A stretch of 44,449 bases of DNA from Chloroflexi bacterium bin125 (GTDB lineage Bacteria > Chloroflexota > Dehalococcoidia > Bin125), in contig MPNM01000024.1 in assembly GCA_002239025.1 (NCBI GenBank), positions 1-44,449 of the forward strand. Direction: 5' to 3'. The position numbers were made by a program, and so were the translations under genes. Shown here piece after piece: positions 6,679-38,550 of this stretch. Each line of letters opens with the position of its first letter. The stretch's first letter is position 1. Under the pieces are notes generated by a model that worked only from the letters and a program-made list of their open reading frames with translations, did not search any database and was not told where the DNA came from.

Positions 6679-6683
6679 ACATT

Positions 6684-8570: not shown

Positions 8571-9962
8571 ATGACACGAAGTATTTCCGCCTTTGCCACA
8601 TGGCGAGGGAACACCTTCGCCGCGCTCAATGACCGGCACTTCCGGATCCTCTTCGTGGGCACACTGTTCGCCACCGTTGCCTACATGATGATGTTCGTGG
8701 CGATGTCGATCGTCTCGTACGACCTGTCGGGGACGAACACGGCGGTCGGGGTAATCGGCACGGGCGTCGGACTGTCAATGCTGCTCGCTCCGTTTGGCGG
8801 CGTGATTGCCGACCGGGTGAATCGCAAGTGGGTGATCGTCATCGGCCAGGGTGGCGGCGCTGTGATGCTGACGGTTACCGGGGTGTTGTTGCTCTTCGAT
8901 GCAATGACGCTTCCCTTGATGTTCGTGCTGATGATGTTGCTGGGCTTCACCTTCGTTGTAATGGGACCGGCACGCAATGCCTTCACCGCCGATCTGGTTG
9001 GTCCTCGACTGATCGGCAACGCCATGGTCCTGAGCCAGCTCGCGCACACGGTGGGCCAGCCATTCTCGCCGTTCATCGCAGCGATGGTAATCGAGTCTGC
9101 TGCCGGTACCGGCGGGACCTACATGTTGATGGGCGTACTGGTGTCGTTGGGCGTCGTCACGGTTGCGATGATGCCCAATCGACGGAGTCAGGCCGTTCCG
9201 GCTGCCGGAGAGGACGCGTCGGCGCCTAAGCGATCCGTTCTCGCCGACATCGCCGACGGCGCGCGCTACGTCTGGCGGCGGCCTTCCTTGCGACTGATGC
9301 TGCTGATGTTCGTCAGCGCGGTCGTGATCGGCTTCCTCTTCCGCATCCTCACGCCGGCGCTGCTTGACCAGCACCTGAACCGACCGACGACCGACATCGG
9401 CATGCTCTTCCTGGTCAACGGGGTCGCAGCCATGGTCGTCGCGTTCCTCGTCGCCGGCGCGGCCACGACGCGTTGGGCCTGGCCGATCGTGCTCGTTCTG
9501 ATTGCCGTCATGGGCATTGGTTACCTCGTCCTGGCGGCGTCGCAAAGCCTGGGTCAGGCCATGATCGGGATGGCGTTGCTGGGGCCCGGACTGCAGGGAC
9601 CCGTGATGATCCTGCAGGCGCGGATCATGATGAACACCGAATCGGCCTACTACGGCCGGGTCATGTCGTTCACGATGATGGCATGGGGCGTGCAGATGGT
9701 CTTCGGCGCGCCGGCGGGCATCCTGGCCGATATCATCGGCGAGCGCGAAGTCTTCGCGCTGATGGGTCTGCTCGCCTTTGCCGTGACCGTACTGGGAACG
9801 TTCGGCTGGCTGGCAATCCGCAAGGACGACCGACCCGCCCTGCCCTCGTTGATGCCAGTCGCAGCGGCCGCTTCGAGCAATGGAAACGGCGCTGGATCGG
9901 TCGCCCTACCCCCAATGCTGCGCCCGGTCGCATTGATGTCGGGTCAGAAGATCGACAACTGA
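8571..9962 (+). CDS. MFS transporter (MFS_3 / EntS-like exporter group), paralog 1
   Basis: The 463-residue protein has about 12 predicted membrane helices. The MFS motif A between TM2 and TM3 reads GGVIADRVNRK. A central cytoplasmic loop of ~30 residues (about 205-235) separates the two six-helix halves, and the C-terminal tail is Ala/Ser/Asn-rich. The N-terminal FAALNDRHFRILFVGTLFAT block is typical of the MFS_3 group, which includes the enterobactin exporter and macrolide effluxers. The substrate is unknown. It is a tandem paralog of the gene at 10193; both have leaderless-type starts, so each has its own promoter. Confidence 0.85.
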   Translation: MTRSISAFATWRGNTFAALNDRHFRILFVGTLFATVAYMMMFVAMSIVSYDLSGTNTAVGVIGTGVGLSMLLAPFGGVIADRVNRKWVIVIGQGGGAVMLTVTGVLLLFDAMTLPLMFVLMMLLGFTFVVMGPARNAFTADLVGPRLIGNAMVLSQLAHTVGQPFSPFIAAMVIESAAGTGGTYMLMGVLVSLGVVTVAMMPNRRSQAVPAAGEDASAPKRSVLADIADGARYVWRRPSLRLMLLMFVSAVVIGFLFRILTPALLDQHLNRPTTDIGMLFLVNGVAAMVVAFLVAGAATTRWAWPIVLVLIAVMGIGYLVLAASQSLGQAMIGMALLGPGLQGPVMILQARIMMNTESAYYGRVMSFTMMAWGVQMVFGAPAGILADIIGEREVFALMGLLAFAVTVLGTFGWLAIRKDDRPALPSLMPVAAAASSNGNGAGSVALPPMLRPVALMSGQKIDN

Positions 9963-9986
9963 GCCTCGTGCCCTCCATGTAGCATT

Positions 9987-10136
9987 CGTCATTCCCGCGC
10001 TCCGTCGCGGGAATCTCGCCGCCTGTCGCACCTTCGCTAGAGACGGTCGACTCTGTTCGCTTGCATGGATCAATCCCTCCCAGACTCTGTTGCTGTGCAC
10101 ATCGAGATACCCGCCACGGAGCGCGGGTATGACGTA
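9987..10136. repeat. Pair of type C REP-like palindromes, inverted
   Basis: Copy one (9987-10020) reads CGTCATTCCCGCGCTCC then GTCGCGGGAATCTCG. Copy two (10101-10136) reads ATCGAGATACCCGCC, then ACGGAGCGCGGGTATGACG, in the opposite sense. They occupy the 230-bp gap between the two MFS genes. No gene is visible in the gap. Confidence 0.7.
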
Positions 10137-10180
10137 GACACCGACAACGCCCAACGCCGACTACTCCCTTTGCCCGCTCA

Positions 10181-10186
10181 TAGACT
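10181..10186 (+). promoter_or_regulatory. -10-like TAGACT box of a leaderless start (10193)
   Basis: TAGACT is followed by 6 nt and the ATG of the second MFS gene. The same hexamer with the same spacing precedes the CaiB gene that starts at 22326. Confidence 0.5.
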
Positions 10187-10192
10187 GCTCGT

Positions 10193-11590
10193 ATGAGGCG
10201 AAGTATTCAGGGCTGGAAGTCGAATACCTTCCTCGCCCTTGAGCATCCGCAGTTCCGCATCCTGTTTGCTGGCACGCTCTTCGCGACGCTCGCGTACATG
10301 ATGATGTTTGTCGCTCAGTCGGTCGTCTCCTTCGATCTGGGCGGGACGAACTCGGCTGTGGGGCTGGTCTCGATGGGCACCGGCATTTCGATGCTGATCG
10401 GCTCGCCCTGGGGCGGGGTGATCGCGGACCGGGTGAATCGCAAGTATCTGATCGTGCTCGGCCAGGGCGCGGGTGCTGTCATGCTGGCGCTGACGGGCGT
10501 GCTGCTCTTGCTCGATCTCGTCAACCTGCCGTTGATGTTCATCCTGACCCTGATCCTCGGCGCCACGTTCGTGTTTATGGGACCGGCCCGCAACGCCTTC
10601 ACCGCCGACATCGTCGGACCACGGCTGATCGGCAATGCCGTTGCACTGAACCAGCTCGCGCATAGCTGGGGCATGCCGGTCGCGCCAATGATTGCGGCGC
10701 TGCTGCTCGAGTCATCGGTCGGCGGCGGCGGTACCTACGTCGTGATGGGCATCCTGGTCTCGGTTGGCGTGCTCTCGATGGCCGTGATGCCGAACAAAGG
10801 CAAGCCAGAGCAGTCGGGTAAACGCAGTCCGCTGCAGGATTTGTTGGATGGCGTCCGCTATGTCGCGCAACGGCCTCCGCTGCGCCTGATGATCCTGCTG
10901 TTCATGGCCACGGTCGTGATCGGCTTCATGTTCCGTGTCTTGACGCCGGCGTTGCTGGAACACCATCTCGACCGACCGTCGACCGATATGGGTCTGATGA
11001 TGACTGTCAACGGGATCGCCAGCGCGGTGCTGGCGATTGGCGTCGCCGGCCTCGCCACCTCGCGCTGGTCGTGGCCGTTGATCTTCATCCTCATGGGAGT
11101 CATGGGACTCGGTTACCTGATCATGTCGCAAGCGCAGACCTATGGTGTCGCGGTTGCCTCGATGGCGCTGCTCGGACCGGGACTCCAAGGTCCGACCTTG
11201 TTGCTCCAGGCCAAGATCGTGATGAACACGGAATCAGCCTACCTGGGCCGAGTCACCGCATTCACAATGATGTCCTGGGGCGTGTCATCGGTCAGCGGCG
11301 GCCCGGCCGGTATCATCGCCGACTGGCTGGGCGAACGAGAGGTGTTGACGGGCGTCGCGCTGGGAACGTTCGTGGCGGTCGGCATCGGCATACTGGGCTG
11401 GCTGGCGATTCGAAAGTACGAAGCGAGGGCGCCAAAGATTCGTCTCACGCCCGAGACGGACATCCGCGGAGCGCAGCTCGCCGTCGCAGAGGACGCGAAC
11501 GGTGATGCAGTCGTCGCAACCCCGACGATGCCGCCACCGCCGATGCTGCGTCCTGTGGCCTTGATGTCGGGCCAAAAGCTCCGGAACTGA
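10193..11590 (+). CDS. MFS transporter (MFS_3 / EntS-like exporter group), paralog 2
   Basis: This 465-residue protein aligns end to end with paralog 1. The motif GGVIADRVNRK, the MGPARNAFTAD segment, the RVLTPALLEHHLDRP loop and the C-terminal PPMLRPVALMSGQK are shared. About 12 membrane helices are predicted. The pair arose by local duplication, with two REP-like palindromes now between them. Differences lie mostly in the periplasmic half of TM5-6 and in the tail. The substrate is unknown; a heterodimer is not expected for MFS proteins, so divergence in substrate is the simpler reading (inference). Confidence 0.85.
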   Translation: MRRSIQGWKSNTFLALEHPQFRILFAGTLFATLAYMMMFVAQSVVSFDLGGTNSAVGLVSMGTGISMLIGSPWGGVIADRVNRKYLIVLGQGAGAVMLALTGVLLLLDLVNLPLMFILTLILGATFVFMGPARNAFTADIVGPRLIGNAVALNQLAHSWGMPVAPMIAALLLESSVGGGGTYVVMGILVSVGVLSMAVMPNKGKPEQSGKRSPLQDLLDGVRYVAQRPPLRLMILLFMATVVIGFMFRVLTPALLEHHLDRPSTDMGLMMTVNGIASAVLAIGVAGLATSRWSWPLIFILMGVMGLGYLIMSQAQTYGVAVASMALLGPGLQGPTLLLQAKIVMNTESAYLGRVTAFTMMSWGVSSVSGGPAGIIADWLGEREVLTGVALGTFVAVGIGILGWLAIRKYEARAPKIRLTPETDIRGAQLAVAEDANGDAVVATPTMPPPPMLRPVALMSGQKLRN

Positions 11591-12954: not shown

Positions 12955-13162
12955 TCCCCGCTTTACGGAGACCTTTGAAAAACTCCCCTTCTCCCCCCTT
13001 GCGGGGGAGATGCCGAAGGCAGAGGGGGGTCCGATGTTCGGGAGCCCTATCTGGTCATCATCAGCCGACCCTCCCTCTGTCACTCCGTGACATCTCCCCC
13101 CGCAAGGGGGGGAGAGGGGATTTCGGAGTCTCTCAAAGGTCTCCGTAAAGCAGGGATCGGGG
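12955..13162. mobile_element. Fold-back MITE-like element with 18-bp perfect core of terminal inverted repeats
   Basis: The left arm holds CTTTACGGAGACCTTTGA (12961-12978), and the right arm holds its exact reverse complement at 13133-13150. Inside each arm lies a type A repeat (12982-13033 and, inverted, 13068-13120). The element is about 200 bp, cannot encode a transposase, and sits between two small membrane genes of the head-lysis operon. It fills most of the gap 12845-13185, where no gene is seen. The remainder (12862-12937) holds a degraded type A copy and a GGGTGTCTCA motif like the ends of the element at 31755. Confidence 0.65.
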
Positions 13163-23317: not shown

Positions 23318-24880
23318 TCATCGATCACTCCAGCGAGCGTCCCGGCCTCTGGACGGAGTGCTGAGCTTGAACGGTGTCCGTTTGGCTCGCTCCGAAGTTG
23401 CTAACTCGTGCATGTAGCGGTCGGCGTCGACCAGGTCGTCGTTTCGTTTCTTTGGTTTGGGGCTGTGGTCGGTGCTTGACTGGTCCCACTGGTACTCGCG
23501 CATCCGCGACGGGAACACGGACATTGACGGCGCGTAGTAGGAGCTGGGCGGATCTCCGTTGAGTCGCTGTTGGACCAGGGCGATGCCCCAGTTGACGGAG
23601 TCGGGGCCGCCTTTGCTGGGCACGACGTGATGGCCCTGCCGGCGTTGATGGTCGATCCAGGCCGACTGTGAACGGTCGGCGCACCACTGGATGGCGCCCA
23701 GCTTGCGCTGCCAGGATTGTTGCCATTGTTCGAGCCGCTGGGTGACGCCGGGTCCGCGCTCCTCGAACTCGCCGAGGCGAATCAGGATGTTGGGGGGAAC
23801 CCCCCCTCTGCCTGTCGGCATCTCCCCTCGCAAGGGGGGGAGAGGAGAGCGGGTATCTGCCGGCATCCTTCCCCGCAAAGGGGGGAGAGGAGAGTGGGTA
23901 TCTATCGGCATCTTTCCCGGCAAGGGGGGGAGAGGAGAGTGGGTGCCTGTCCGCATCTCGCCCTGCGAGGGAAGGAGATTGGAGCCAGCTGTCAGTCCTG
24001 CGACAATACCCGCGGTGTAGTGGTCCTTGGGCGACTGACCGCCGAAGTCGAGTCCTCCGATGTATCGAGCGAAGCTGGGCAGAGGCGCGTCCCAGCGGTG
24101 CGTGTCGGGGCCGAAGTGCTGGTAGATCTGACCCTCGAACGCATCGAAGCTGCCCTCGATGAAGCGCTGCACCCATTCGCCCGGCTGGAGCGCTCGTTGC
24201 TGGGCGGCGTAGTTTGAGGGGAGGTGCGGATTGTCGGGGATCTTCGCCGGGATGTAGACGATCCGGCCGTCGGCGTCGGCGAAGGCCGACTCATCGAGCT
24301 CGCGTCGGGCAAACCAGCGCTCGAACCAGCCAGGCCAGGGATTGGAGGCTGCGACGAACCATCGTTGCGGCTGGGCTGGATGTCGCAGTCGGGTGAGGAG
24401 CATCTGCGCGGCTTCTTCTGCGACCTCGCCGGCTTCGTCGACGAACACCGCGCCGTACTGCTCCGAGCCCAGACCCGACCACTCGGTCAGATGACGAAAG
24501 TGAATCGTCGACCGAACGCCGTACGGCCAGGAGGCGTCGCGGATCGCGACCCACTGCGGGGATGATCGATGCCGTTCAACGATCAGGCGCTCGGGCAGAC
24601 ACTCGAAGAACTCCCGCATCGTCGTCGTCTGCAGGTTGGAGTAGTGCTGTCTCGCAATCAGGATGTTGGTGCCCGGGAATGCGAGTGCTGTATCGATTGC
24701 CAGCTCAGCGATGGCGCGGGTCTTGCCGCCACCCATCGCCCCGCCGTAGCCAATCAGCGTCATCCCGCCGATGGGCGTCTGGCGGAGCGCGTCGTAGACA
24801 GCGAGCTGCCGCTCGGTCGGTGTGAATCGCTGATCGGAAGGCAGCATCGGAAGTGCGGTTGGAATGCTATTCGTCGTCAT
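23318..24880 (-). CDS. Phage terminase large subunit with tandem 45-bp insertion repeats
   Basis: The 520-residue protein (ATG 24880, GGAGG 6 nt upstream) has an N-terminal ATPase with Walker A GGAMGGGKT (46-54) and Walker B VFVDEA (145-150), then an RNase H-like nuclease with GLDFGG (Asp278) and a C-terminal DDLVDADRY. These are the motor and cutting parts of phage DNA packaging. Between GIVAGLTAG and PPNILIRLGEFEERG it carries ~60 extra residues encoded by repeats (unit of 15 residues, SPLPPLRG type). This is a loop between two strands of the nuclease, so activity may survive. The small-terminase-like gene precedes it with a 14-bp overlap. Confidence 0.82.
   Translation of the reverse strand: MTTNSIPTALPMLPSDQRFTPTERQLAVYDALRQTPIGGMTLIGYGGAMGGGKTRAIAELAIDTALAFPGTNILIARQHYSNLQTTTMREFFECLPERLIVERHRSSPQWVAIRDASWPYGVRSTIHFRHLTEWSGLGSEQYGAVFVDEAGEVAEEAAQMLLTRLRHPAQPQRWFVAASNPWPGWFERWFARRELDESAFADADGRIVYIPAKIPDNPHLPSNYAAQQRALQPGEWVQRFIEGSFDAFEGQIYQHFGPDTHRWDAPLPSFARYIGGLDFGGQSPKDHYTAGIVAGLTAGSNLLPSQGEMRTGTHSPLPPLPGKMPIDTHSPLPPLRGRMPADTRSPLPPLRGEMPTGRGGVPPNILIRLGEFEERGPGVTQRLEQWQQSWQRKLGAIQWCADRSQSAWIDHQRRQGHHVVPSKGGPDSVNWGIALVQQRLNGDPPSSYYAPSMSVFPSRMREYQWDQSSTDHSPKPKKRNDDLVDADRYMHELATSERAKRTPFKLSTPSRGRDARWSDR
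23816..23982 (-). repeat. 45-bp tandem repeats derived from type A palindromes, in the terminase gene
   Basis: Copies begin at 23816, 23861, 23906 and, partly, 23951, each 45 bp apart. Each contains CGGCATC, a C-rich arm, GGGGGGAGAGG and an AGAG-GGGTATCT tail. The length of 15 codons keeps the frame. Confidence 0.85.
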
Positions 24881-25136
24881 TGCCGGCCTCCACTTCATCC
24901 CTTACAGCAGGAGCAGGCAGTCGGCTGAGCTCAGGCGTCAGCCGCACGACCGGCGCCCCACCGTCGGTGGGGCTGTCCTTGAACAACGCGATCGTCCGGC
25001 CTAGCAACTCCCAGGCACGCAATCTCGTGGTGTCGGCGGTTTCGCCGTAGGCCATGCGTCGAATGCCGGCGATCACTTCAGTCTTGGTGATCGGGCCATC
25101 GGGTATCTCGACTGGTTCGGCTTCCGATTTGGGCAT
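24867..25136 (-). CDS. Terminase small-subunit-like protein
   Basis: The 89-residue protein starts at ATG 25136 (MPKSEAEPVEIPDG). Its central helix has TADTTRLRAWELLGRTIALF, the pattern of the C-terminal helix of small terminases of the Terminase_2 type. No DNA-binding helix-turn-helix is evident, so the protein may be shortened. The stop lies 14 bp inside the large-subunit gene, so the two are translationally coupled. The long open frame upstream (to 26522) is antisense to the DUF885 gene and is not real. Confidence 0.6.
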   Translation of the reverse strand: MPKSEAEPVEIPDGPITKTEVIAGIRRMAYGETADTTRLRAWELLGRTIALFKDSPTDGGAPVVRLTPELSRLPAPAVRDEVEAGNDDE

Positions 25137-25267
25137 GGTGATCCTCGTGTCGGGATGCAAGGCGCCTTCGCCAGGCGGCTCGCGTTGTACTGTTCTGGTG
25201 GATGTGGTCGATAGTATATGAACGTATGTACTCATATCAAACAGGCGCGTAACATGCGAATCACGAG

Positions 25268-25325
25268 CGGGCTGGGCGGCCCCCTCAGTCACTTCGTGAC
25301 AGCTCCCCCAAGGGGGGAGCTCCTG
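25268..25325 (+). repeat. Type A repeat at the DUF885 gene's 5' end
   Basis: GGCCCCCTCAG, TCACTTCGTGAC, AGCTCCCCC and AGGGGGGAGC form a palindromic unit. It is in frame if translation starts at ATG 25218, but may be in the 5' leader if it starts at GTG 25338. Confidence 0.7.
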
Positions 25326-25337
25326 GGAAAGAGCTTT

Positions 25338-27053
25338 GTGGTGAGTGCTGAACTGAATACTGTTTCTGCGATTTCTGACTGGTATGTCGATGCTTTGGCG
25401 GCGGCTTCTCCGAATATGGCGACTTCTCTGGGGATTCCGGGTCGGGAGACGGAGTTGACGGACTACTCTCCGTATGGGCATGCGGAGCGGTCGGCGATTC
25501 GGCGGCAGGCGGAGGCGGCTCTTCGACTGCTGAATGTGGAGTCTGAGCGCGACCGGGTGGCTCGGGATGTGATGCTGGAGCGGTTTGACTATGAGGCGGA
25601 GCTTGAGGCTCAGCAGGAGCATTTGCGCTCGCTGAACATCCTCGCGTCTCCGTTGCAGAATACTCGACAAGTGTTTGATTTGATGCCTCGCGAGACGGAG
25701 GAGGATCAGGCGAACATTGTTGAGCGAATGGGCGCGGTGCCGGAGGCGTTGGAGCGGTATCGGTCCTCGCTGGCGGCGGGGATGGACGAAGGGATCGTGG
25801 TGGCTCAGCGTCAGGTGCTGGGTGGGATAGAGCAGTGTCGCGTGTGGGCTGGGGCGGGACCCCCCTTCAGTCGCTCCGCGACAGCTTCCCCCGCAAGGGG
25901 GGAAGCGGGAGCCAAGGGATTCTTCTCGAATCTCGTAGACAGCCTGGGGATTGATGGTGGGTCGAATGTGACGGCGGCGGAGCAGGGCTATGCGGCGTTG
26001 GCTGAGTGGTTGCAGACGGAGTACTTGCCTCGCGCGAATCCTCATGATCCCGTTGGGCGGGAGCGATACCAGGCTGCTTCCCGGGGATTCAACGGGATTG
26101 AGTTGGACCTTGAGGAGACGTACCAGTGGGGCTGGGAAGAGGTCTGGCGGATTCAGTCGGAGATGGCTGAGACGGCGGAGCGGATCTCGCCGGGCGCGTC
26201 GGCGGCTGAGGCGATTGCGATCCTGGAGTCGGACGACTCGCGCGCGATTACCGGGGAGGATGCGTTCCGCGAATGGATGCAGCACACGCAGGACGACACG
26301 ATGCAGTCGCTGCTGGGCACGCACTTCGATATCGCTGAGCCGGTGCAGCAGATCGAGGCGATGATCGCGCCACCGGGCGGAGCGCTGGCGATGTACTACA
26401 CGGGTCCGTCGGAGGACTTCTCGCGGCCCGGCCGGACCTGGTATCCGACGGGCGGCGAGACTCGCTTCCCGCTCTGGCGGGAGCTCTCGGTCTGCTATCA
26501 CGAGGGCGTCCCGGGGCATCATCTACAGATTGGCACAACTCGGTATCTGGGTGATCAGTTAACGCGGTATCAGCGGCTGCTGGCGGGGACATCAGGTTAT
26601 GTCGAGGGCTGGGCGCTGTACGCCGAGCGTCTGATGGCCGAGCTGGGCTACCTCGAGGATCCGGCGTTCTACATGGGACTGCTCAGCAGCCAGGCGTTGC
26701 GTGCGGTGCGCGTAGTGATCGATATCGGGATGCACCTCGAGCTGCCGATCCCAGAGCGCGAGGAGTACCACGGCGGTGAGACCTGGACGTCGGAAATGGC
26801 GCTGCCGTTCCTGATCGAGCGCTCATTCTTCCCCGAAAAGATGCTGGCCAGCGAGGTCGATCGCTACCTGGGCTGGCCGGGTCAGGCGATCTCGTACAAG
26901 GTCGGAGAGCGAGAGTGGCTAGCGGCGAGGGAGTCGGCCAGGGAATCGTTGGGCGGCGCCTTCGATCTGAAGGGATTCCACAAGGCGGCGTTGGACCTTG
27001 GGCCAATGGGTTTGCAGCAGCTCAGAGATGAGATGTCGCGGCTGCGGGGCTAG
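25338..27053 (+). CDS. DUF885 family predicted metallopeptidase with an in-frame repeat
   Basis: The protein is about 571 residues if it starts at GTG 25338, just before AELNTVSAISDWYVDALAAASPNMATSLGIPG, the usual family N-terminus. ATG 25218 would add 40 residues encoded partly by a repeat. The catalytic motif CYHEGVPGHHLQ (about 385-397) and the downstream VEGWALYAERLMAELG with the likely third ligand are intact. DUF885 proteins resemble zinc carboxypeptidase-like enzymes; substrates are unknown. A type A repeat at 25858-25912 adds ~18 residues (GPPFSRSATASPARGE) in a surface region. Confidence 0.8.
   Translation: MVSAELNTVSAISDWYVDALAAASPNMATSLGIPGRETELTDYSPYGHAERSAIRRQAEAALRLLNVESERDRVARDVMLERFDYEAELEAQQEHLRSLNILASPLQNTRQVFDLMPRETEEDQANIVERMGAVPEALERYRSSLAAGMDEGIVVAQRQVLGGIEQCRVWAGAGPPFSRSATASPARGEAGAKGFFSNLVDSLGIDGGSNVTAAEQGYAALAEWLQTEYLPRANPHDPVGRERYQAASRGFNGIELDLEETYQWGWEEVWRIQSEMAETAERISPGASAAEAIAILESDDSRAITGEDAFREWMQHTQDDTMQSLLGTHFDIAEPVQQIEAMIAPPGGALAMYYTGPSEDFSRPGRTWYPTGGETRFPLWRELSVCYHEGVPGHHLQIGTTRYLGDQLTRYQRLLAGTSGYVEGWALYAERLMAELGYLEDPAFYMGLLSSQALRAVRVVIDIGMHLELPIPEREEYHGGETWTSEMALPFLIERSFFPEKMLASEVDRYLGWPGQAISYKVGEREWLAARESARESLGGAFDLKGFHKAALDLGPMGLQQLRDEMSRLRG
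25858..25912 (+). repeat. Type A repeat inside the DUF885 gene
   Basis: GACCCCCCTTCAG, TCGCTCCGCGAC, AGCTTCCCCC, GCAAGGGGGGAAGC. It is read in the opposite sense to the copy in MaoC-like paralog 2 and in the same phase as the copy at 25268. Confidence 0.8.
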
Positions 27054-27829: not shown

Positions 27830-28696
27830 ATGCAACGCCTGCTCATTGCCCTGGTTGCTTTGGCGCTCCTGATTGTGGCTTGTGGCTCGGGCGATGCTGA
27901 GCCGCAACCGGCTGCGACCGAGACGGCTTCCTCTCAGCGTGCCGAACGGCAGGCGACGGTGTTGGAACAAGAACAAGAGCAGGAGGCAGAGGTCGCGGTT
28001 GCGGACGACCAGGCGGAGCCCGAGCAACAGGTCGAGCAAGTTCAGGTCCAGCAAGTTGAGAGTGAAGAGGCTCAAGCCGAACAGGATCAAGCCGAGCAGC
28101 AGGTCGAGGTTCCACAGGAGACCCCCGACGACCAGCAGGTCGTTGTCCTGCCCGAAGATGTCGTCGGCGAACACAAGGGTGTTCGCTCGGAGCGCAATGT
28201 GCTCGGCGACCCTGACGCTTCCGTCGAGATTCTGTACTACGGGGACTTCACTTGAGGCGGCTGTCAATGGTTTGCGGCTCAGGTTGAGCCGCTGATTCTG
28301 GAGCAGCTGGTCTCGACAGGTACGGCCCGCTTCGTCTTCCGTCACTTCCCGATCCGCGGCGATCAGGCGGTCTTTGCGGCTGTCGTCGTCGAGTGCGCAG
28401 CCAACCAGGGCGCGTTCTGGCCGCTGCACGACCGCTTCATGGCCGGTGATGAGACCCTATTCACCGAAGCCGGACTGCGGCGACAGATCACGTTTGAGGG
28501 CCTGAACTATGAAGAGTTCGTCACTTGCGTGACCGAGGGTCATACCTTCCCGCAGGTCAGCGCTTCATATGACGAAGGACTCGCTCGCGGCGTGCTAGGC
28601 ACTCCGGCGGCATTCGTCAACGGTGAATCTGTCGATCCCACCTATGAAGCAATCGAAGCAGCGGTCAAGCAGGCGGCAGAGGAGAGCGGGGAGTGA
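27830..28696 (+). CDS. DsbA-like selenolipoprotein 1 (UGGC active site, in-frame TGA)
   Basis: One reading frame of 289 codons is broken only by TGA at 28253-28255. Residues 1-18 are a lipoprotein signal (LLIVAC, Cys18). A long Gln/Glu/Ala linker follows (about 20-120). Then comes a thioredoxin-like domain starting NVLGDPDASVEILYYGDFT, TGA, GGC. The TGA stands for the first Cys of CXXC, giving Sec142-Gly-Gly-Cys145. After it run QWFAAQVEPLI, FVFRHFPI, a helical insert and the cis-Pro loop GTPAAFVNG. Thiol-disulfide exchange outside the membrane is expected. Conventional gene calling would end at 28255 and restart at 28439. Confidence 0.88.
28253..28292 (+). promoter_or_regulatory. Sec codon and SECIS-like hairpin of selenoprotein 1
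   Basis: TGA 28253-28255. Arms GCGGCTCA (28274-28281) and TGAGCCGC (28285-28292) are exact complements around loop GGT. The loop begins 27 nt after the TGA. Loop size, its first G and the distance fit bacterial SECIS rules. Confidence 0.82.
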
Positions 28697-28743
28697 TGCG
28701 TATCGCGAACGCGATCCGTTCCCGACAGGAGTACAGTCGATTC

Positions 28744-29574
28744 ATGGGCGTGGGCACTCGACGATCGACGTGGTTGTGGGCGTTGGCGGCTCTGGCAGTG
28801 GGAGTCAGCTTGCTCGTATCAGCCTGCGGATCGGGCGGCGAGTCTGGCGATCAGAGCGACGAGCCAACCGCTACCGGCACCGAGCGCAGCGAACGCGCCG
28901 ACCGCCAGGCCTCGATCATGCAGCAGCAGGACCAACAGGCGGCTGCCGAATCCGAACAGACCGATCAGGTTGATGCATCCGACGACACGTCGGAGTTGCA
29001 AGCGAACGAGCTGGGCGAGATTGACTTTGGCCACCGCGAGGGACTGCCCTTCATTCGCAATGTCGTGGGCGATCCCGAAGCGCCGGTCGTGATTGTTGAG
29101 TATTCCGACTTCCAGTGACCGAGCTGTCGAAGTTTCGCGGCTCAGTTTGAGCCGCAGATTATGGAGGAACTGATCAGCACCGGGGTGGCTCGATATGAGT
29201 ATCGGCACTTCATCATCTTTGGCTCAGCCTCGCAGTTTGCGGCGATGGCGACCGAGTGCGCGGGCGACCAGGGCGCCTGGTGGGAGTTCCACGACGCCTA
29301 CCTGCTCAAGGCGCAAGCGCGCACGTTCACTCGCGCCGGAGCGATTGAGCTGGCCCGCGACGAGGGACTCAATGTGGCGCAATTCACTCAGTGCGTCGAC
29401 AACGAGGAGCACCACGATCGAATCTTGCAGATGCAACAGCAGGCGATCGCGGACGGTGTGAGCGGGACGCCGACGTTCCGGATCAACGGTCAGCCTGGGG
29501 CTCGGTCATTGAGTGGGATCATCGAGCAGGTGCACGCGGCCGCTGAGGCGGCGCAGAACGAGGAGGGAAGCTGA
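28744..29574 (+). CDS. DsbA-like selenolipoprotein 2 (UPSC active site, in-frame TGA)
   Basis: The frame runs from ATG 28744, with AGGAG 12 nt upstream, to TGA 29572-29574. ATG 28696, overlapping the previous stop, is an alternative. The only in-frame stop is TGA 29116-29118. A lipoprotein signal (LLVSAC, Cys at about 28), an acidic, Gln-rich linker and a thioredoxin-like domain (NVVGDPEAPVVIVEYSDFQ) precede it. Sec125-Pro-Ser-Cys128 is followed by RSFAAQFEPQIMEELISTG, YEYRHFIIF, the helical insert with ECAGDQGAWWEFHD and the cis-Pro loop GTPTFRING. The protein is 276 residues. The next gene overlaps by one base (TGATG). Confidence 0.88.
29116..29155 (+). promoter_or_regulatory. Sec codon and SECIS-like hairpin of selenoprotein 2
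   Basis: TGA 29116-29118. Arms GCGGCTCA (29137-29144) and TGAGCCGC (29148-29155) surround loop GTT, starting 27 nt after the TGA. Confidence 0.8.
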
Positions 29575-30590
29575 TGTTGCTGAGGATGGGACTGGTCCTT
29601 GTCAGCGCCTCGTTGTTGTTGGCGGCGTGTACGTCGGAGTCTGACGAGCCGCCGCCGTCGTCGGCTCAGATGGCGGAAGGGCAACAGGAGGAGTCGGCGA
29701 TGGCGTATGAGGCCGGCGAGAGCGAATCGGCGGAGCAGGAGTCGGAGGTAGAGGCAGAGCAGTCGGGCGAGGCTCTGCAAGAGGAAGCAGAGCGGGTCCC
29801 CGCTCAAGGCGGGGACGGGCAAGGGGACACTGACGCGGTCGTCGCTCAAAGCGGGGACGGTGAGGGCGCCGAGCAAGCAGTACAGGAATCGCAGGCTGAG
29901 GATGGGCAAGAGGAGCAGGAGCGGGTCCCCGCTCAAGGCGGGGACGGGGAAGGGGAAACGGAGCAAGTAGTCTCTCAAGGCGGGGACGAGGAGGATGTTG
30001 CCGCTCAGGGCGGCGACGGAGGCGAAGCGGAGGCGATGGTCGGGATGATCATCGAGTCGGGTCACCGCGCCGGACTGATCGCGAATCGCAATGTGGTTGG
30101 CAATCCCGACGCGCCGATCGTGATCACCGAGTACTCCGATTTCCTTTGACCGAACTGCCGCAGATTCGCGGCTCAGGTTGAGCCGCGCGTGATCGAGGAA
30201 CTGGTTCGCACCGGCGTGGCCCGGTTCGAGTACTCGCACATCATCAATCATGGTCGGCCGTCGATGCTCGGCGCGCTGGCCACGGAATGCGGCGGCGACC
30301 AGGGCGCGTGGTGGAGTTTTCACGACCACTACATGAGTCAGTGGGACTTCTCGCGTGAGGGTGCGATCGCCTACGCAGCATCGCTGTCACTGGATACCGA
30401 GGAATTCACCCAGTGCCTGGACAGCGAAAAGTACCTCGAGCTGGTCGAGGGACAACATCGACAGGCAGTTGCGGACGGCGCGAACCGAACTCCCACCGTG
30501 CGAATCAACGGCGAAGGCGCCGCCATCGTTGCCGATGCTCTGATCGAGCAAGTGCTCACGCTGGCGGCAGAACTGGAAGCGGAAGGCTAG
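29574..30590 (+). CDS. DsbA-like selenolipoprotein 3 (UPNC active site, in-frame TGA)
   Basis: The frame has 339 codons with one internal stop, TGA 30147-30149. ATG 29574 overlaps the preceding TGA. The lipoprotein signal has LLLAAC (Cys at about 19). The linker is the longest of the four and is built partly from type B repeats (RVPAQGGDG and VVSQGGD units, 29791-29990). After NVVGNPDAPIVITEYSDFL comes Sec192-Pro-Asn-Cys195, then RRFAAQVEPRVIEELVRTG, FEYSHIINHG, ECGGDQGAWWSFHD and the cis-Pro loop RTPTVRING. Product 338 residues. Selenoprotein 4 begins 2 bp after the TAG stop. Confidence 0.88.
29791..29990 (+). repeat. Type B-derived repeats in the linker of selenoprotein 3
   Basis: GCGGGTCCCCGCTC-AAGGCGGGGACGGG appears at 29791-29820 and again at 29921-29948, with shorter GGCGGGGAC remnants near 29855 and 29980. 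The type B palindrome is here on the opposite strand from its copy in the CaiB fusion. All copies keep the frame. Confidence 0.7.
30147..30186 (+). promoter_or_regulatory. Sec codon and SECIS-like hairpin of selenoprotein 3
   Basis: TGA 30147-30149. Arms GCGGCTCA (30168-30175) and TGAGCCGC (30179-30186) surround loop GGT, starting 27 nt after the TGA. Confidence 0.82.
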
Positions 30591-30592
30591 AC

Positions 30593-31294
30593 ATGAATCG
30601 AATACGAATCCTGGCCGGAACGCTGGCCGTCGCGTTCATTGCACTATTGCTGACGTCCTGCGGCGACGCTGACGGAGACCAACAGTCTGCATCACAAGCT
30701 CAGTCGGCTATTCAAGCGGAGCAAGCTGATCAGCCTGCGCAGATTGAACAGACCCAGCAGGCCGAACCAGAAGCGCGGGTGCAGGTCATCCGCGATCGCG
30801 CGTTCCTCGGTAGCCCCGACGCTCCTGTCGTGATCCAGGAGTATTCCGACTTCCTTTGAGGCGGCTGCCGACAGTTCGCGACCCAGGTTGGGCCGCGCAT
30901 CGAAGAGGAACTGATCGCCACCGGACTGGCTCGGTTTGAGTACCGGCACATCATCAATCACGGCCTGTCGTCAGAGATGGCCTCGCTGGCAACCGAGTGC
31001 GCCGGCGACCAGGGCGCCTGGTGGGAGTTCCACGACTACTACTTCGAGGGCCCCGGACGCGACGCCTACACGCGCGACGGCGCCGTCGCGGTCGCTGCGG
31101 AGTTCGGTCTCGACACCGACCAGTTCGGCCAGTGCATGGACGACCAGGCACACCTCGACCTGATCTACGACCAGCACACCGACGCGGTGTCTCGGGGCCT
31201 CTCCAGCACTCCGACCATCCTGGTCAACGGAGAACGAGGCCCCACCTCGGCCGACGCGTTGATCGAGCTGGTCAAGGAGCTCGCCGAGGGCTAG
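30593..31294 (+). CDS. DsbA-like selenolipoprotein 4 (UGGC active site, in-frame TGA)
   Basis: The frame has 234 codons with one internal stop, TGA 30857-30859. A lipoprotein signal (LLLTSC, Cys at about 22) is followed by a short Gln/Ala/Glu linker. The thioredoxin-like domain starts FLGSPDAPVVIQEYSDFL, then Sec89-Gly-Gly-Cys92, RQFATQVGPRIEEELIATG, FEYRHIINHG, ECAGDQGAWWEFHDYYF and the cis-Pro loop STPTILVNG. At 233 residues it is the shortest of the four. It ends the array; a repeat-rich gap of 888 bp follows. Confidence 0.88.
30857..30896 (+). promoter_or_regulatory. Sec codon and SECIS-like hairpin of selenoprotein 4 (with paired change)
   Basis: TGA 30857-30859. Arms GCGACCCA (30878-30885) and TGGGCCGC (30889-30896) surround loop GGT, 27 nt after the TGA. 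Compared with the other three, T-A at the sixth pair is C-G here (both sides changed), and the fourth pair is an A-C mismatch. Confidence 0.8.
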
Positions 31295-31457: not shown

Positions 31458-31620
31458 GCGACCATCCTTCGTTGATCGAGTGAACATCGAGGTTCGGACC
31501 GCGAACCAGAGGCTCTTGAGCTAGCAACCAGGGAGCCAGACCCACTCAGCCTTTCTTCAAGCCGAGGTCCCGCTCTTCGTCTGCTCCCCCCGCTAAGAGG
31601 CTGATGCACGACTCACATTC

Positions 31621-31650
31621 CCGTCCCCGCCCCCGAGCGGGGACCCGCTT
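31621..31650 (+). repeat. Type B palindromic repeat
   Basis: CCGTCCCCGCCCCCG, then AGCGGGGACCCGCTT. Intergenic copy of the unit in the CaiB linker. Confidence 0.75.
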
Positions 31651-31754
31651 TGGCTTGGCCGAGGCCGTTCTCGATGGTTCGTGCTGACCAAGTGTCAGCA
31701 GCAAGAATGGCCGCCGTGCGGAAGCCGGGGATTGTGCAGGCCCCCGCTCGGACA

Positions 31755-31913
31755 GGATGTCTCAGAAGTAAATTTTTCAGTCCCCGCTTCACGCGGGGAC
31801 CCGCTCGGGCGGTGCGGGCCATCTGGTGGTGGGTAACTCAACGGGGAAGGAGCAGGTCCCCGCGAGAAGCGGGGACTGAGATTCATCCAACTGGGTTGAC
31901 TGCTGAGACACCC
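31755..31913. mobile_element. 159-bp MITE-like element with GGRTGTCTCAG ends
   Basis: The left end GGATGTCTCAGAAGT (31755-31769) and the right end ACTGCTGAGACACCC (31899-31913) are inverted repeats with two mismatches. Inside lie two type B-like palindromes (31780-31806 and 31854-31881). There is no coding capacity. Flanking target duplication is unclear. A single GGGTGTCTCA end also occurs near 12918. Confidence 0.6.
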
Positions 31914-32182: not shown

Positions 32183-34219
32183 TTGCCCGCACTTGCACAA
32201 CCGACTGAAGCGCAACCTCAGGAATCGACGCCGGCGATTCTTGTCCGGTCCCTGTCGGAGGCCGACCTCAACCACATGCTGGACCAGCTTGGCGGCGGGC
32301 GATCAGCAGTTCGCGGCGCATTGAGCCGATTCTCGGCGTTGCATGAACGGATTCGGCATCGCGAGACTCACCTCTACAACACTCGCGAAGCCGATCCCCG
32401 ATTCTCGGCGCCGCACCTCGACGCCGAACCCTGGCAGACCGATTTGCCCAGACGGACGTGGTCGCAATTGCGACAGCGACTGACCGAGCATCCATTGCGG
32501 GTCCACGTCGAGCCGCCAGACAACTCGCCGACCGCTCGTCAGGCCGCCGACAATCTTGAGCACGTGCTTGAGCAGGGCTTACGGCAGGTCGAGGAGCGCT
32601 CGCAACTGTCCTTGCAGGCCGACCTCGGCTATGGCCAGGTTTGCCTCTGCTTCGGCGTCCTGCACTGGCAGCGCGCCGCCGACCGCTTGCCATCGCTGCC
32701 CGCTCGCGAGCAACGCGGCGCTCGACCCGACGATCCCGAGGAGCGTCGCCGCTTCCGACGGGCGCGTTCCGAGGACGGGCCGTCATTGCCCTGGATCGAG
32801 ACCGAGGAGAGCAGGCGCGACCGCGATCGACAACGACAGGCCGCCGCCGGATTCCCCTGGGACGTGGAGGTCATCCGGCCCGACCAGTTCGCCTTTGTCG
32901 AGGACCACGGTTCGGGCAATGGACTGGGCATCGCCGTCGTACTGCGCGAGGTCGGACTGTTCGAATATCGCGACCGGCTGCGCGATCAGGACGGACTCAA
33001 GCTGAGCATGTCCGTGATTGGTGGTGATGCGTCGTTGGGTGTCTCGCGAGCGGTCGATGCGCCGCTGCGACACGAGCCGTCCGGCGCCGGCTGGGGCGAC
33101 CGGGTGCGCGTCGCATCGGTCTGGACGCGGCACGAGTACTACGAACTGGCGGCGGTCGACCGCAACGCGCTCAAGACAACACAATCGACGAAGTCGAACC
33201 CGCGTCACGAATGGACGCTGATCAAGTCGCATCCGCATCCGTACGAGATGCCGCCGTTCGCCATCGCCGATGCGGACACGAACGATCATCCCGACATGGT
33301 CCGGCGCTGGGAGCCGACGATGGAGGGCATCTATCGGGCCAAGCCGGGTTACGACTACGAGCGATCGCTGGGCCGGTTCCTGGCCGAACAGACGGCAATC
33401 CCGCTCTACTGGATCCAGCTCGCGGACGGCTCCTGGCAGACCGATGATGACGGCAATCGCGTCGAACTGACCCCCGACGCCGCCTCAGCGCAAGCGCTGC
33501 CGCCCGGCGCCTCGCTACATCGGGTCGAGTTCCGCATTGATCCGGCGTTTGTCGAGTTTCTGCGCATGTCGCACGACGAGCTGATTGCCGCAGCGCCCGA
33601 TTCAGGGTCGGTGGAGCGCGGTGAGATTGGTCCAAACACGCAACCGCACACGCTAAACCTGCTGCTCGGCTCGCGCAATCTCCAGGTCCAGCAGCTCAAG
33701 CGCGCGCAGACCCTGGCCGTGCGCACCATGCTGCGCAACATGGCGCTGGTGATGTCGAAGCCGCTGGCCGAAGGCGGCTTCGGCGCACCGATCTGGGTGT
33801 TCGCCAAGGGCCATAACGGACGCGTCCAGCGTCGCGAGACGGTCTGCGTCGAGCCGTCGCGGATTCCTTCGCTGGACATTGATGTCTGGATCGATCCCTA
33901 CTCCTCCGCTCAGCGGATCGCCGTGCAGGAACACGGTCGGGCGCGACTCAACGATCCACTCGATCCACTGGACCAACGCGCCTATCTCGAGCAGTACATC
34001 GGCGAGGAACATGCCGACCAGGTGCTCGCGCGGCATCGTCAATGGCGTCTGGAACAGGCGCGATTCGAGCAGGAGGTTGCCCAACTCACGGGAGATCAAC
34101 CGCAGCCATCGTCGTCCAATGGCGGCCGCAGTGTGCCGGCGTCGAGCCGGCTGACAGGACATCTCAGTCCCCTGGGTTCCCTGACGGCGTCGGACGACGA
34201 CCGGACGGTCCGTCCCTAG
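32183..34219 (+). CDS. Phage portal protein
   Basis: The 678-residue protein starts at TTG 32183 with AAGGAGG 5 nt upstream. The N-terminal part has the portal-type pattern (a helix, HLYNTREADPRFSAPHLDAEPWQTDLP and a Q..L...P.RVHVEP strand). The central part contains the VIRPDQFAF.ED segment and a long helical stretch, and a C-terminal SVERGEIGPNTQPHTLNLLLG...QVQQLKRAQTLAVRTMLRNMALV. Portals form the ring at one capsid vertex. It is isolated from terminase and capsid genes, with selenoprotein and recF genes on either side. No tail genes follow. Confidence 0.72.
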   Translation: MPALAQPTEAQPQESTPAILVRSLSEADLNHMLDQLGGGRSAVRGALSRFSALHERIRHRETHLYNTREADPRFSAPHLDAEPWQTDLPRRTWSQLRQRLTEHPLRVHVEPPDNSPTARQAADNLEHVLEQGLRQVEERSQLSLQADLGYGQVCLCFGVLHWQRAADRLPSLPAREQRGARPDDPEERRRFRRARSEDGPSLPWIETEESRRDRDRQRQAAAGFPWDVEVIRPDQFAFVEDHGSGNGLGIAVVLREVGLFEYRDRLRDQDGLKLSMSVIGGDASLGVSRAVDAPLRHEPSGAGWGDRVRVASVWTRHEYYELAAVDRNALKTTQSTKSNPRHEWTLIKSHPHPYEMPPFAIADADTNDHPDMVRRWEPTMEGIYRAKPGYDYERSLGRFLAEQTAIPLYWIQLADGSWQTDDDGNRVELTPDAASAQALPPGASLHRVEFRIDPAFVEFLRMSHDELIAAAPDSGSVERGEIGPNTQPHTLNLLLGSRNLQVQQLKRAQTLAVRTMLRNMALVMSKPLAEGGFGAPIWVFAKGHNGRVQRRETVCVEPSRIPSLDIDVWIDPYSSAQRIAVQEHGRARLNDPLDPLDQRAYLEQYIGEEHADQVLARHRQWRLEQARFEQEVAQLTGDQPQPSSSNGGRSVPASSRLTGHLSPLGSLTASDDDRTVRP

Positions 34220-35909: not shown

Positions 35910-36106
35910 TCGACCTCGTGAGACCGCGGGCAAACAATTGTGGATATCCGTTCTGCATAAGAAACGTGAGTAGTACCCCAAAGGGAACTTGTACCCCTCG
36001 TCGTTCCAGCACCGCCGCCACACTGGCGGCCTGCACAGATGGGGCTGAGCGTGTACCATGTTCCAAATTCACTTGCGGACGCCCCGCCAACCACTGGAGT
36101 GCATCC

Positions 36107-37153
36107 ATGGCCACCATTCAGCACGATGTTCCTGGAATCAACCTTGATTGGCTCAACGTTGATACCGACCAGGGCATGGAGATCGAGACCGGTCGCAAAG
36201 GCCTGACGCTGGAGACGATCAACCAGCTCACCTACGGCGTTGACGACCGCGACGAGGCACGCCAGCGTCAGTGGGCGCCGCGCGGCGCCGCCGCCGACCC
36301 CCGCTCTCCTTCGAACAGCGTCCAGCACCTGAACAAGGCCGACGTCTGGACCGAGTCCGCGATGCTGCTCTACGAAGAGGCGCTGCAGCGCCAGTGGTCG
36401 TCCGCTCGGGACATTCCCTGGGACACCATTGAAGAGCTGCCTCCCGATCTTGAGCACGCAATGTGTACGCTCTGCACGTTCCTGACCCAGGTCGAGTTCA
36501 TCGCCGGTGACGTGCCGGGTCGATTCATGGAGCAGATTCACCCCGAGTTCTTCGAGTCGCAGCTCTTCCTCGGCACGCAGTTGATGGACGAAGCGCGTCA
36601 CCTCGACGTGTTCCGCAAGCGCACGCTGATCAACGGCGGCGGCATGTCCGGTGCAGGCCTGGGCGCAGTCCAACTGCTCGGCTCCGATGACTTCACTGAG
36701 ATGACCGCGCTGCTCCACCTCGTCGGTGAGGGCTTCGTGCAGACGCTCTTCCGCATGGGTGAGCTGATTTCGCAGAACGAAGCTGAGAAGCGGATGTTCC
36801 GACTCTCCGCGCAGGACGAGTCGCGTCACCTCGCATTCGGTGTCACGCATCTCAAGTACACCGTCGAGACCGAGCCCTGGCGCAAGGAAGAACTGCACCA
36901 CATCCTCGACATGCAGGAAGCGCTGCTGACGCAGTCGCAGCAGACCTCGCTGACCACCAACCCGCTGACGGGTGAGGCGCTCGCCATCCTTTCCGGTGGC
37001 GGCATCGAGCACCTCGACGAGGGCTACAACATGGTCATGCTGATGCGTCGCAAGCAGTTCATTGAGTACGCTCACCGACTGGAAGTGATCGGGCTCGACC
37101 GCCACGACCGCTTCGCGCCGGAAGTGCTCTCCTTGCTTGGCGAAGACAACTAG
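36107..37153 (+). CDS. R2-like diiron protein, intact ligand set
   Basis: The 348-residue protein starts at ATG 36107, with GGAG 7 nt upstream. It has the six-ligand ferritin-like pattern of the ribonucleotide reductase R2 / diiron oxygenase superfamily: Glu130, Glu162-A-R-His165, Glu208, Glu238-S-R-His241 (seen). The spacing between Glu130 and the ExxH (32) is as in R2 proteins. No R1 gene is visible, and the sequence does not look like classical NrdB. It could be an R2-like ligand-binding oxidase or a hydroxylase component. The degenerate paralog follows 158 bp later. Confidence 0.75.
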   Translation: MATIQHDVPGINLDWLNVDTDQGMEIETGRKGLTLETINQLTYGVDDRDEARQRQWAPRGAAADPRSPSNSVQHLNKADVWTESAMLLYEEALQRQWSSARDIPWDTIEELPPDLEHAMCTLCTFLTQVEFIAGDVPGRFMEQIHPEFFESQLFLGTQLMDEARHLDVFRKRTLINGGGMSGAGLGAVQLLGSDDFTEMTALLHLVGEGFVQTLFRMGELISQNEAEKRMFRLSAQDESRHLAFGVTHLKYTVETEPWRKEELHHILDMQEALLTQSQQTSLTTNPLTGEALAILSGGGIEHLDEGYNMVMLMRRKQFIEYAHRLEVIGLDRHDRFAPEVLSLLGEDN

Positions 37154-37311: not shown

Positions 37312-38550
37312 ATGGAACTGTCGACGATGACCAAAGTGCGCGCCAAGAAGGCGGGCTGGTCGGAAGATCTGATCGAGCGGATTGAAGCCTCGGCCGCCAC
37401 CGACCAACAGGTCGAGAATCTGGCCCGCGGCGAACTCAGCGAAGCCAAGATCAGCGGCTGGCTGGAGTTCATGGAGAACCACCCTGACAACCCGTTCAGC
37501 AGCGCGCCGTTCAACATCTTCAAGACCCCGGCCGAGATCGGCCTCAAGGCGACGCCCGGCCCCGACGGTCTGCGACTGCGCGACATTAACATCGGCAGCT
37601 ACGGTGTCGTGCCCGATCAGTGGGCTCTGCCAAACGACGCGCCTCGCGGCACCGAGTCGACCGGTCAGATCATGGCCGCCGGCTACTCGATCTTCGATAA
37701 GGCCGAAGTCTGGTCCGAAAACGCCGTCGACCTGTACGAAGACGCAATCAAGGACCGCTGGATCCCTGCGACAGAACTCGACTGGGAGAACGGCCTGGCT
37801 GAGCTACCGGAAGAGATGGAGCGCTCTGTCGGGCAGATCTGCACCATCTACTCCAACAACGGGCTCGTCGAGCAGAAGATCATCGGGCGCTGGCTCGAGG
37901 AAATCTCCTACGGCTTCCACGAAGTCAAGCTCTTCCTGGCGACGCAGGTCTACGACGCCGGCCGCAAAGTCGAGGTGCTGCGCAAGCGCGCCCTGATCAA
38001 CGGCGGCGGACTTGGCCAGGCGCCGCTGGGCCAGATCTATCGCGGGTGGTACCAGGGCCTCACCTTTACCGACATGATCATCGCGCTCGACGTGGTCTAC
38101 AAGAGTTACGAAGTCACGCTATTCGAGTCGGCCTCGGAGTGGGCGCAGACAGATGTCGAGCGTGACATCTTCGCCCTGATTGCGAAGGATTCGCGACGAC
38201 ACCTCGACTACGGTATCGCCCACCTCGATTGGTACACGCGCTACAAGCCCGAGGCGGACAAGCGGCTCAACATCCAGTTCCTTCGCGCCGAAGCCGCGAT
38301 GGTGCAGGAAATGCGGCTCTCAACCACCGAGCGCGAGGCGCTGATCGTCCTGTTGGCAGGTGGCGTCGAGAATCTCCAGGCCGGCGTCGACAAGTTGAAG
38401 ACGCTGCGTCAGCGGCAGTACGACTCCTACATGGAGAACCTCGCCTCAATCAACTTCGATCGACCTGCCGCACATCCAGGCCTCGTCGGCCAGATCAAGG
38501 ATCCGCTGGAAGGCGGCATCGTCGCCGTGCGGGCGGTGGCACAGAACTAG
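37312..38550 (+). CDS. R2-like paralog that has lost the diiron ligands
   Basis: The 412-residue protein has an N-terminal extension of ~60 residues and then aligns with the gene before it (KAEVWSENAVDLYEDAIKDRW, RKRALINGGG). At the six ligand positions it has Gly184, Ala216, Lys219, Lys264, Ser294 and His297. Only the last His is kept. The fold is probably the same, but iron cannot be held in the usual way. A loss-of-ligand partner is known for yeast Rnr4, which stabilises its R2 partner. A heterodimer is therefore an attractive but unproven idea. Confidence 0.72.
   Translation: MELSTMTKVRAKKAGWSEDLIERIEASAATDQQVENLARGELSEAKISGWLEFMENHPDNPFSSAPFNIFKTPAEIGLKATPGPDGLRLRDINIGSYGVVPDQWALPNDAPRGTESTGQIMAAGYSIFDKAEVWSENAVDLYEDAIKDRWIPATELDWENGLAELPEEMERSVGQICTIYSNNGLVEQKIIGRWLEEISYGFHEVKLFLATQVYDAGRKVEVLRKRALINGGGLGQAPLGQIYRGWYQGLTFTDMIIALDVVYKSYEVTLFESASEWAQTDVERDIFALIAKDSRRHLDYGIAHLDWYTRYKPEADKRLNIQFLRAEAAMVQEMRLSTTEREALIVLLAGGVENLQAGVDKLKTLRQRQYDSYMENLASINFDRPAAHPGLVGQIKDPLEGGIVAVRAVAQN

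Follow-up and report, generated by a model that had tools for sequence, protein, structure and literature searches.

A tandem array of DsbA-like lipoprotein genes with in-frame TGA codons

We analysed a 44,449-nucleotide (nt) stretch of DNA from the Chloroflexi bacterium bin125 (Dehalococcoidia; contig MPNM01000024.1 of assembly GCA_002239025.1), hereafter the window. Four consecutive genes on its forward strand, A to D (Table 1), had been described in a first-pass annotation of the sequence as DsbA-like lipoprotein genes, each broken by one TGA at the codon for the first active-site cysteine. When TGA was translated as selenocysteine (Sec, U), each of the four was indeed an open frame with a single internal TGA, and this codon occupied the first position of the CxxC motif in all of them. 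The half that follows the TGA was likewise in frame in every gene, matched the Thioredoxin_4 and DSBA domains and carried a (G/S/R)TP cis-Pro loop. In Pfam, the four products matched PF13462 (Thioredoxin_4, E 3e-24 to 4e-31) and also PF01323 (DSBA), both above the curated cut-off, with PF13462 as the better fit. At its N-terminus each product has a lipobox signal (called with a regular expression that also matched most orthologues) and a low-complexity linker; in the window the linkers span 66–173 residues from lipobox to UGA. The linker of gene C contains copies of GGGTCCCCGCTC..GCGGGGAC (29790-29827 and 29919-29956), and inverted copies of it are present at 31613-31652 and 31780-31806, as if an interspersed palindromic repeat had become part of the coding sequence of the linker.

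The genes are closely packed. A and B overlap or are separated by 47 nt, according to which start is taken for B; B and C overlap (the first ATG of gene C overlaps the stop codon of gene B) or lie 11 nt apart, and D begins 2 nt 3' of C. Because all four overlap or sit within ~50 nt of each other, they are likely to form one operon.

Table 1. Features of the Sec-DsbA array and its codirectional upstream neighbour (window coordinates)
Feature	Position	Strand	Description
DUF885 gene	25218..27053	+	PF05960, HEGVPGHH; codirectional upstream neighbour
Gene A	27830..28696	+	Predicted Sec DsbA-like lipoprotein, UGGC; lipobox IVAC; stop TGA
Gene A Sec codon	28253..28255	+	TGA
Gene A hairpin	28274..28292	+	Putative bSECIS, GCGGCTCA-GGT-TGAGCCGC
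Gene B	28696..29574 (likely start 28744)	+	Predicted Sec DsbA-like lipoprotein, UPSC; lipobox LVSAC; stop TGA
Gene B Sec codon	29116..29118	+	TGA
Gene B hairpin	29137..29155	+	Putative bSECIS, GCGGCTCA-GTT-TGAGCCGC
Gene C	29574..30590	+	Predicted Sec DsbA-like lipoprotein, UPNC; lipobox LAAC; long repetitive linker; stop TAG
Gene C Sec codon	30147..30149	+	TGA
Gene C hairpin	30168..30186	+	Putative bSECIS, GCGGCTCA-GGT-TGAGCCGC
Gene D	30593..31294	+	Predicted Sec DsbA-like lipoprotein, UGGC; lipobox LTSC; stop TAG
Gene D Sec codon	30857..30859	+	TGA
Gene D hairpin	30878..30896	+	Putative bSECIS, GCGACCCA-GGT-TGGGCCGC; compensatory T-A -> C-G pair

The TGA codon is conserved across the genus and in sister genera

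Of the 15 genomes of the genus, 14 have an array of three or four Sec genes, with the order preserved; in the remaining one, G003 (89% complete, ~470 contigs), the array was not seen. The order A-B-C-D was found in the source genome (G000) and in G006, G009, G011 and G014, A-B-D in G013, and A-B-C in the remaining eight; apart from the source genome, thirteen members of the genus show the same TGAs. Another Sec-DsbA locus, the fifth and separate from the array (class E), has an N-terminal extension and the same hairpin 3' of the TGA and was found in 13 of these genomes (in the source genome at G000:C1:45190-45711, L138, EYGDPFUPNC; orthologues L139-L150). The extension of class E carries repeated RIIAR...EFGLR...FFP units, and the gene is kept through most of the genus. 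Genomes of the sister genera also carry Sec copies, three of them lying within 5 kb in G017 and two lying singly in G016. Counting the genus arrays, the fifth locus and the two sister genera, the active-site codon was TGA in 65/65 copies (63 extracted by script and two fifth-locus copies that the script's filter had missed), in keeping with the earlier argument that four chance nonsense mutations are not credible. The predicted Sec is never swapped for Cys among the copies seen. All five PF13462 matches in the source genome have the TGA, and a Cys-form Thioredoxin_4 was not found among them. Homologues outside the family have TGC, TGT or TGA at this place, and none halts at that codon. Matches flagged '2 TGA' or 'TGA + TAG' were considered as UxxU proteins or pseudogenes and rejected, the second codon being the terminal stop inside the match.

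The array of four had also been called unusual. When 393 genomes of the class were compared, this genus alone had arrays of three or four genes among the matches listed; a sister genus had a looser trio. Judging by the isolate names of related Dehalococcoidia and Chloroflexota metagenome-assembled genomes, which we take to denote mostly sponge and coral samples, the source bacterium is probably sponge- or coral-associated.

A hairpin follows the internal but not the terminal TGA

A hairpin of the form GCGGCTCA-GGT-TGAGCCGC starts 19 nt 3' of each TGA. Published criteria for the bacterial Sec insertion sequence (bSECIS) are a loop of 3–9 nt, a stem of 4–16 bp, a G in the first two loop positions, a distance of 16–37 nt from the UGA and a minimum free energy <= -7.5 (PMC13188914). 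All four hairpins fall within these ranges, with a 3-nt loop (GGT or GTT), an 8-bp stem and a UGA-to-loop spacing of 26 nt; the 54 nt 3' of the TGA gave folds of -17.6 to -25.5 kcal/mol. The hairpin of gene D has one A-C mismatch, with an upper stem of 4 bp above it. Across the 63 script-extracted copies, 8/8 positions pair in 36, 7 in 23, 6 in 3 and 3 in one (the UPGC copy of G017), and the apical loop is GGT in 43, GTT in 9, GGC in 7 and GTC in 4.

The stem changes as a paired structure would. Both sides have changed together from T-A to C-G (class D), from T-A to G-C (class C of G007 and G008) and from A-T to G-C (some B and E), and we counted 13 such double-sided changes versus 1.2 in shuffles. 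Paired cells amounted to 94%, versus 27–39% when the partner was slid by 1–3 columns. Several of the pair changes alter residues (FAAQVEP to FATQVGP), indicating that pairing is maintained at a cost in residues. Codon choice within the hairpin is also skewed, in part towards otherwise rare codons: Val is GTT in 43/43 cases versus 10% T in the rest of these genes, the Ala at codon 8 is GCT in 39/43 versus 7% T elsewhere, and Pro is CCG in 62/63 versus 58% elsewhere. In Cys homologues, taken from other Chloroflexota and from further phyla, 0–5 of the 8 pairs are present at the corresponding place.

TGA also ends 35 of the 63 genes, and after these terminal codons the mean pairing was 2.7/8 as opposed to 7.46 after the Sec TGA. 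The first-pass annotation had argued from other genes ending in TGA that the codon is not reassigned, and its use as a hairpin-less terminator in the same genes means that TGA is not globally reassigned. As the Sec TGAs are followed by the hairpin and the terminal ones are not, one codon has two meanings within a gene and the hairpin is the discriminator. By analogy with the known pathway, we infer that the hairpin works through SelB.

The genome encodes a complete Sec system

The source genome (3.68 Mb, 96.7% complete) encodes tRNA-Sec with anticodon TCA, SelB (TIGR00475, 347 bits versus a cut-off of 242), SelA and SelD, that is, all four components for which a search had been proposed. SelD (G000:C5, L011) has an in-frame TGA of its own (GGUGSK), at the known Sec site of this protein; SelD is thus a predicted selenoprotein and lends independent support to TGA being read as Sec in this genome. 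Among 61 genomes searched, TGA forms were confined to those with SelB, and the two SelB-less genomes with matches (G049 and G051) had Cys forms. A covariance model (R1) run over the genome found nothing above noise beyond the five Sec-DsbA genes, and weaker matches, with E from about 0.1 upwards, seemed on brief inspection to be due to chance. SelA and SelB have been reported as present in most sponge-symbiont bins and missing in most of the close references of these bins (PMC5649159).

Purifying selection and the history of the copies

Median dN/dS 3' of the TGA was 0.28 (A), 0.18 (B), 0.21 (C), 0.14 (D) and 0.19 (E), values that are rough as synonymous sites have diverged; the sequence comparison showed purifying selection before as well as after the UGA. 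In the tree, A (support 100/100), B (100/99), C+D (100/99, with D at 100/100 inside C) and E (100/98) were well-supported clades, and the deeper order and root were weak. We read the tree as a split of A, B, C and E before the genus radiated, copies A–C probably having arisen by duplication, and a later origin of D from C.

Predicted structure and candidate redox partners

AlphaFold, run on a four-row alignment, gave a model with a predicted local distance difference test score (pLDDT) of 90.6 and a predicted template modelling score (pTM) of 0.85. Its top Foldseek match was BdbD (TM 0.83), followed by actinobacterial DsbA/TsdA and Wolbachia alpha-DsbA1 (TM 0.79). Two more invariant cysteines (80 and 125 of the first sequence) align with C97/C146 of alpha-DsbA1, the pair mutated in entry 3f4t, and a second disulfide is therefore likely. 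Domain searches of the 96.7% complete genome did not find DsbB (PF02600) or VKOR (PF07884); the genome does encode one CcdA/DsbD-like membrane protein. Together these results disfavour a classical DsbA-DsbB oxidase cycle.

Selenoproteins versus alternative explanations

We consider it highly probable that the four genes are one operon of selenoproteins, a degree of confidence that excludes the direction of the redox reaction. SelB would deliver Sec-tRNA-Sec to the ribosome where the hairpin follows, so that the UGA is decoded as Sec, while a hairpin-less UGA at the end of some of the same genes would mean termination. The proteins would be exported, lipidated at the lipobox Cys and tethered outside the membrane on flexible linkers, where the DsbA fold with its UxxC motif, cis-Pro loop and probable second disulfide is predicted to carry out thiol/selenol-disulfide exchange. 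Several points weigh against this interpretation. Sec in the proteins is a prediction from DNA sequence. For genes C and D the z-scores from RNAfold alone (57–91 nt, single sequence) fell short of significance, which is why comparative evidence is needed; in that evidence the constraint on the hairpin overlaps with that on the protein, and sequence relatedness inflates the covariation controls. One copy in G017 (UPGC) is without the standard hairpin at the usual place, and a DsbB or VKOR can escape domain searches when the genome is 96.7% complete. Pseudogenes or assembly and sequencing errors could in principle give the same picture, as TGA is one substitution away from TGC and TGT and a standard open reading frame (ORF) list splits each gene in two. 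We give this explanation practically no credence: the TGA recurs at that codon in 65 copies from separately assembled genomes, the downstream half is under purifying selection, the hairpin is selected and the four genes show no further disabling change. A genome-wide reassignment of TGA (code 4 or 25), or readthrough by a suppressor tRNA, would also account for a TGA that is clearly read through, here without Sec. It appears just as improbable, given that TGA terminates 35/63 of the same genes, that a full Sec system is encoded and that the read-through codon sits at a redox-active position, where homologues have Cys, with a SECIS-type hairpin next to it.

The remaining alternatives accept Sec and concern what the proteins do. 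The halves before the UGA encode long lipid-anchored linkers that could exist alone, and one may picture a selenium-responsive switch in which scarce selenium leads to termination at the UGA and to short lipoproteins that consist of the tether alone and serve a separate function. This seems very unlikely to us, since the linkers are of low complexity and variable length, the catalytic domain is the conserved part and an independent supporting element was not found. More weight is due to the idea that the proteins work as a classical DsbA-type oxidase system whose quinone-linked partner has gone unrecognised, although we still hold it to be unlikely; the DsbA/BdbD fold, a second Cys pair like that of alpha-DsbA1 and the extracytoplasmic location fit it, whereas the failure to find DsbB and VKOR and the presence of the CcdA/DsbD-like protein, which belongs to the reductant side, do not. 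We lean instead towards either a reductase or isomerase fed by CcdA or an exchange protein that is re-oxidised directly by oxidants. A more far-reaching proposal, to which we attach rather little probability, is that the whole Thioredoxin_4/DsbA complement of the genus has been converted to selenium, its five lipid-tethered or exported Sec-DsbA proteins forming a selenium-dependent envelope redox system in symbionts; in this proposal Sec would have made the membrane oxidase dispensable, as selenenylsulfides re-oxidise readily.

Relation to known selenoprotein families and operons

The best NCBIfam match of all four products was NF041057 (E 3.7e-31 to 3.3e-43), with scores of 109–148 bits that lie under the 190-bit equivalog cut-off and so mark relatedness rather than membership. 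NF041057 is the Rcas_1661 family thioredoxin-like (seleno)lipoprotein, listed as DsbG-like with UxxC (PMC13188914). The array proteins share with it the lipoprotein nature and the UxxC motif, but differ in their long low-complexity linkers and in being four tandem paralogues. Sec-containing DsbA (PF01323, UxxC) was described from marine metagenomes as GOS 'DsbA 1' (PMC2398784), as the first-pass annotation had stated, and a 2026 review lists a 'DsbA-like protein form 1' with UxxC (PMC13188914). The array proteins resemble this family in their above-cut-off PF01323 match and in UxxC; the difference is the tandem arrangement, as we found no mention of a tandem DsbA selenoprotein array in either paper. 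Operons with several Sec genes are also known, namely SAO (six Sec genes), Tso (three Sec genes) and frhA-hdrA-frhD-glpC (PMC13188914), but these combine different families in one pathway, whereas here the genes are paralogues of one family.

Among structural relatives, Bacillus subtilis BdbD and Wolbachia alpha-DsbA1 share the fold, and alpha-DsbA1 also the second Cys pair; both have Cys where the array proteins have Sec, at 21–23% identity. BdbD has a DsbB-type partner, in contrast to the genome studied here, in which none was found by the domain searches.

As far as sequence can tell, a known selenoprotein family has expanded in this lineage to form a tandem operon. With the Sec DsbA family and multi-Sec operons already known, what appears to be new is that Sec paralogues from a single family stand in tandem as one operon throughout the genus. 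In the open-licence full-text papers searched we found neither a conserved operon of this kind nor 'Rcas1661' or tandem DsbA selenoproteins, and a description outside those papers is possible. The array offers a clear case of selenoprotein expansion via tandem duplication in uncultured Dehalococcoidia, with 0/65 copies reverted to Cys. The envelope redox system is hidden because standard ORF calling splits its genes into truncated lipoproteins and orphan fragments. Its 60 distinct aligned bSECIS elements, together with the terminal TGAs of the same genes, make a compact natural test set for how SelB discriminates Sec from stop, and the array may link host-associated life to selenium supply.

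Neighbouring genes and other features of the window

The DUF885 gene (Table 1) lies upstream of the array in 13/13 genomes with enough flank, with a gap to gene A of -26 nt to 2 kb, and is possibly in the same transcription unit as the array in some genomes. In G000, G011 and G014 an antisense NYN-domain gene lies between the two. The downstream gene at 32183-34219 is conserved, but it is found on the opposite side in some genomes and matched no family in PHROGs or Pfam; a phage origin was considered for it and rejected. This leaves DUF885 as the sole candidate partner. At 25858-25909 the DUF885 gene carries an in-frame insertion of ~16 residues (GPPFSRSATASPARGE), absent from the G005 orthologue. 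The palindromic repeat that encodes it is found again at 13067-13118 and, inverted, at 6946-6978; the insertion resembles that of an in-frame palindromic element.

On the reverse strand, a terminase large subunit gene (phrog_2, Terminase_3) occupies 23318-24898, and several relatives have related genes in the same region. Other phage genes were not recognised around it among those tested, and it is possibly a domesticated phage remnant. The adjoining genes at 35918-37153 and 37312-38550, without a match in Pfam or PHROGs, share a repeated stretch, and the first is 90–97% identical between genomes of the genus. Direct repeats of 179–300 nt with 71–73% identity at 5863-7541 and 8571-11590 indicate two pairs of tandemly duplicated genes.

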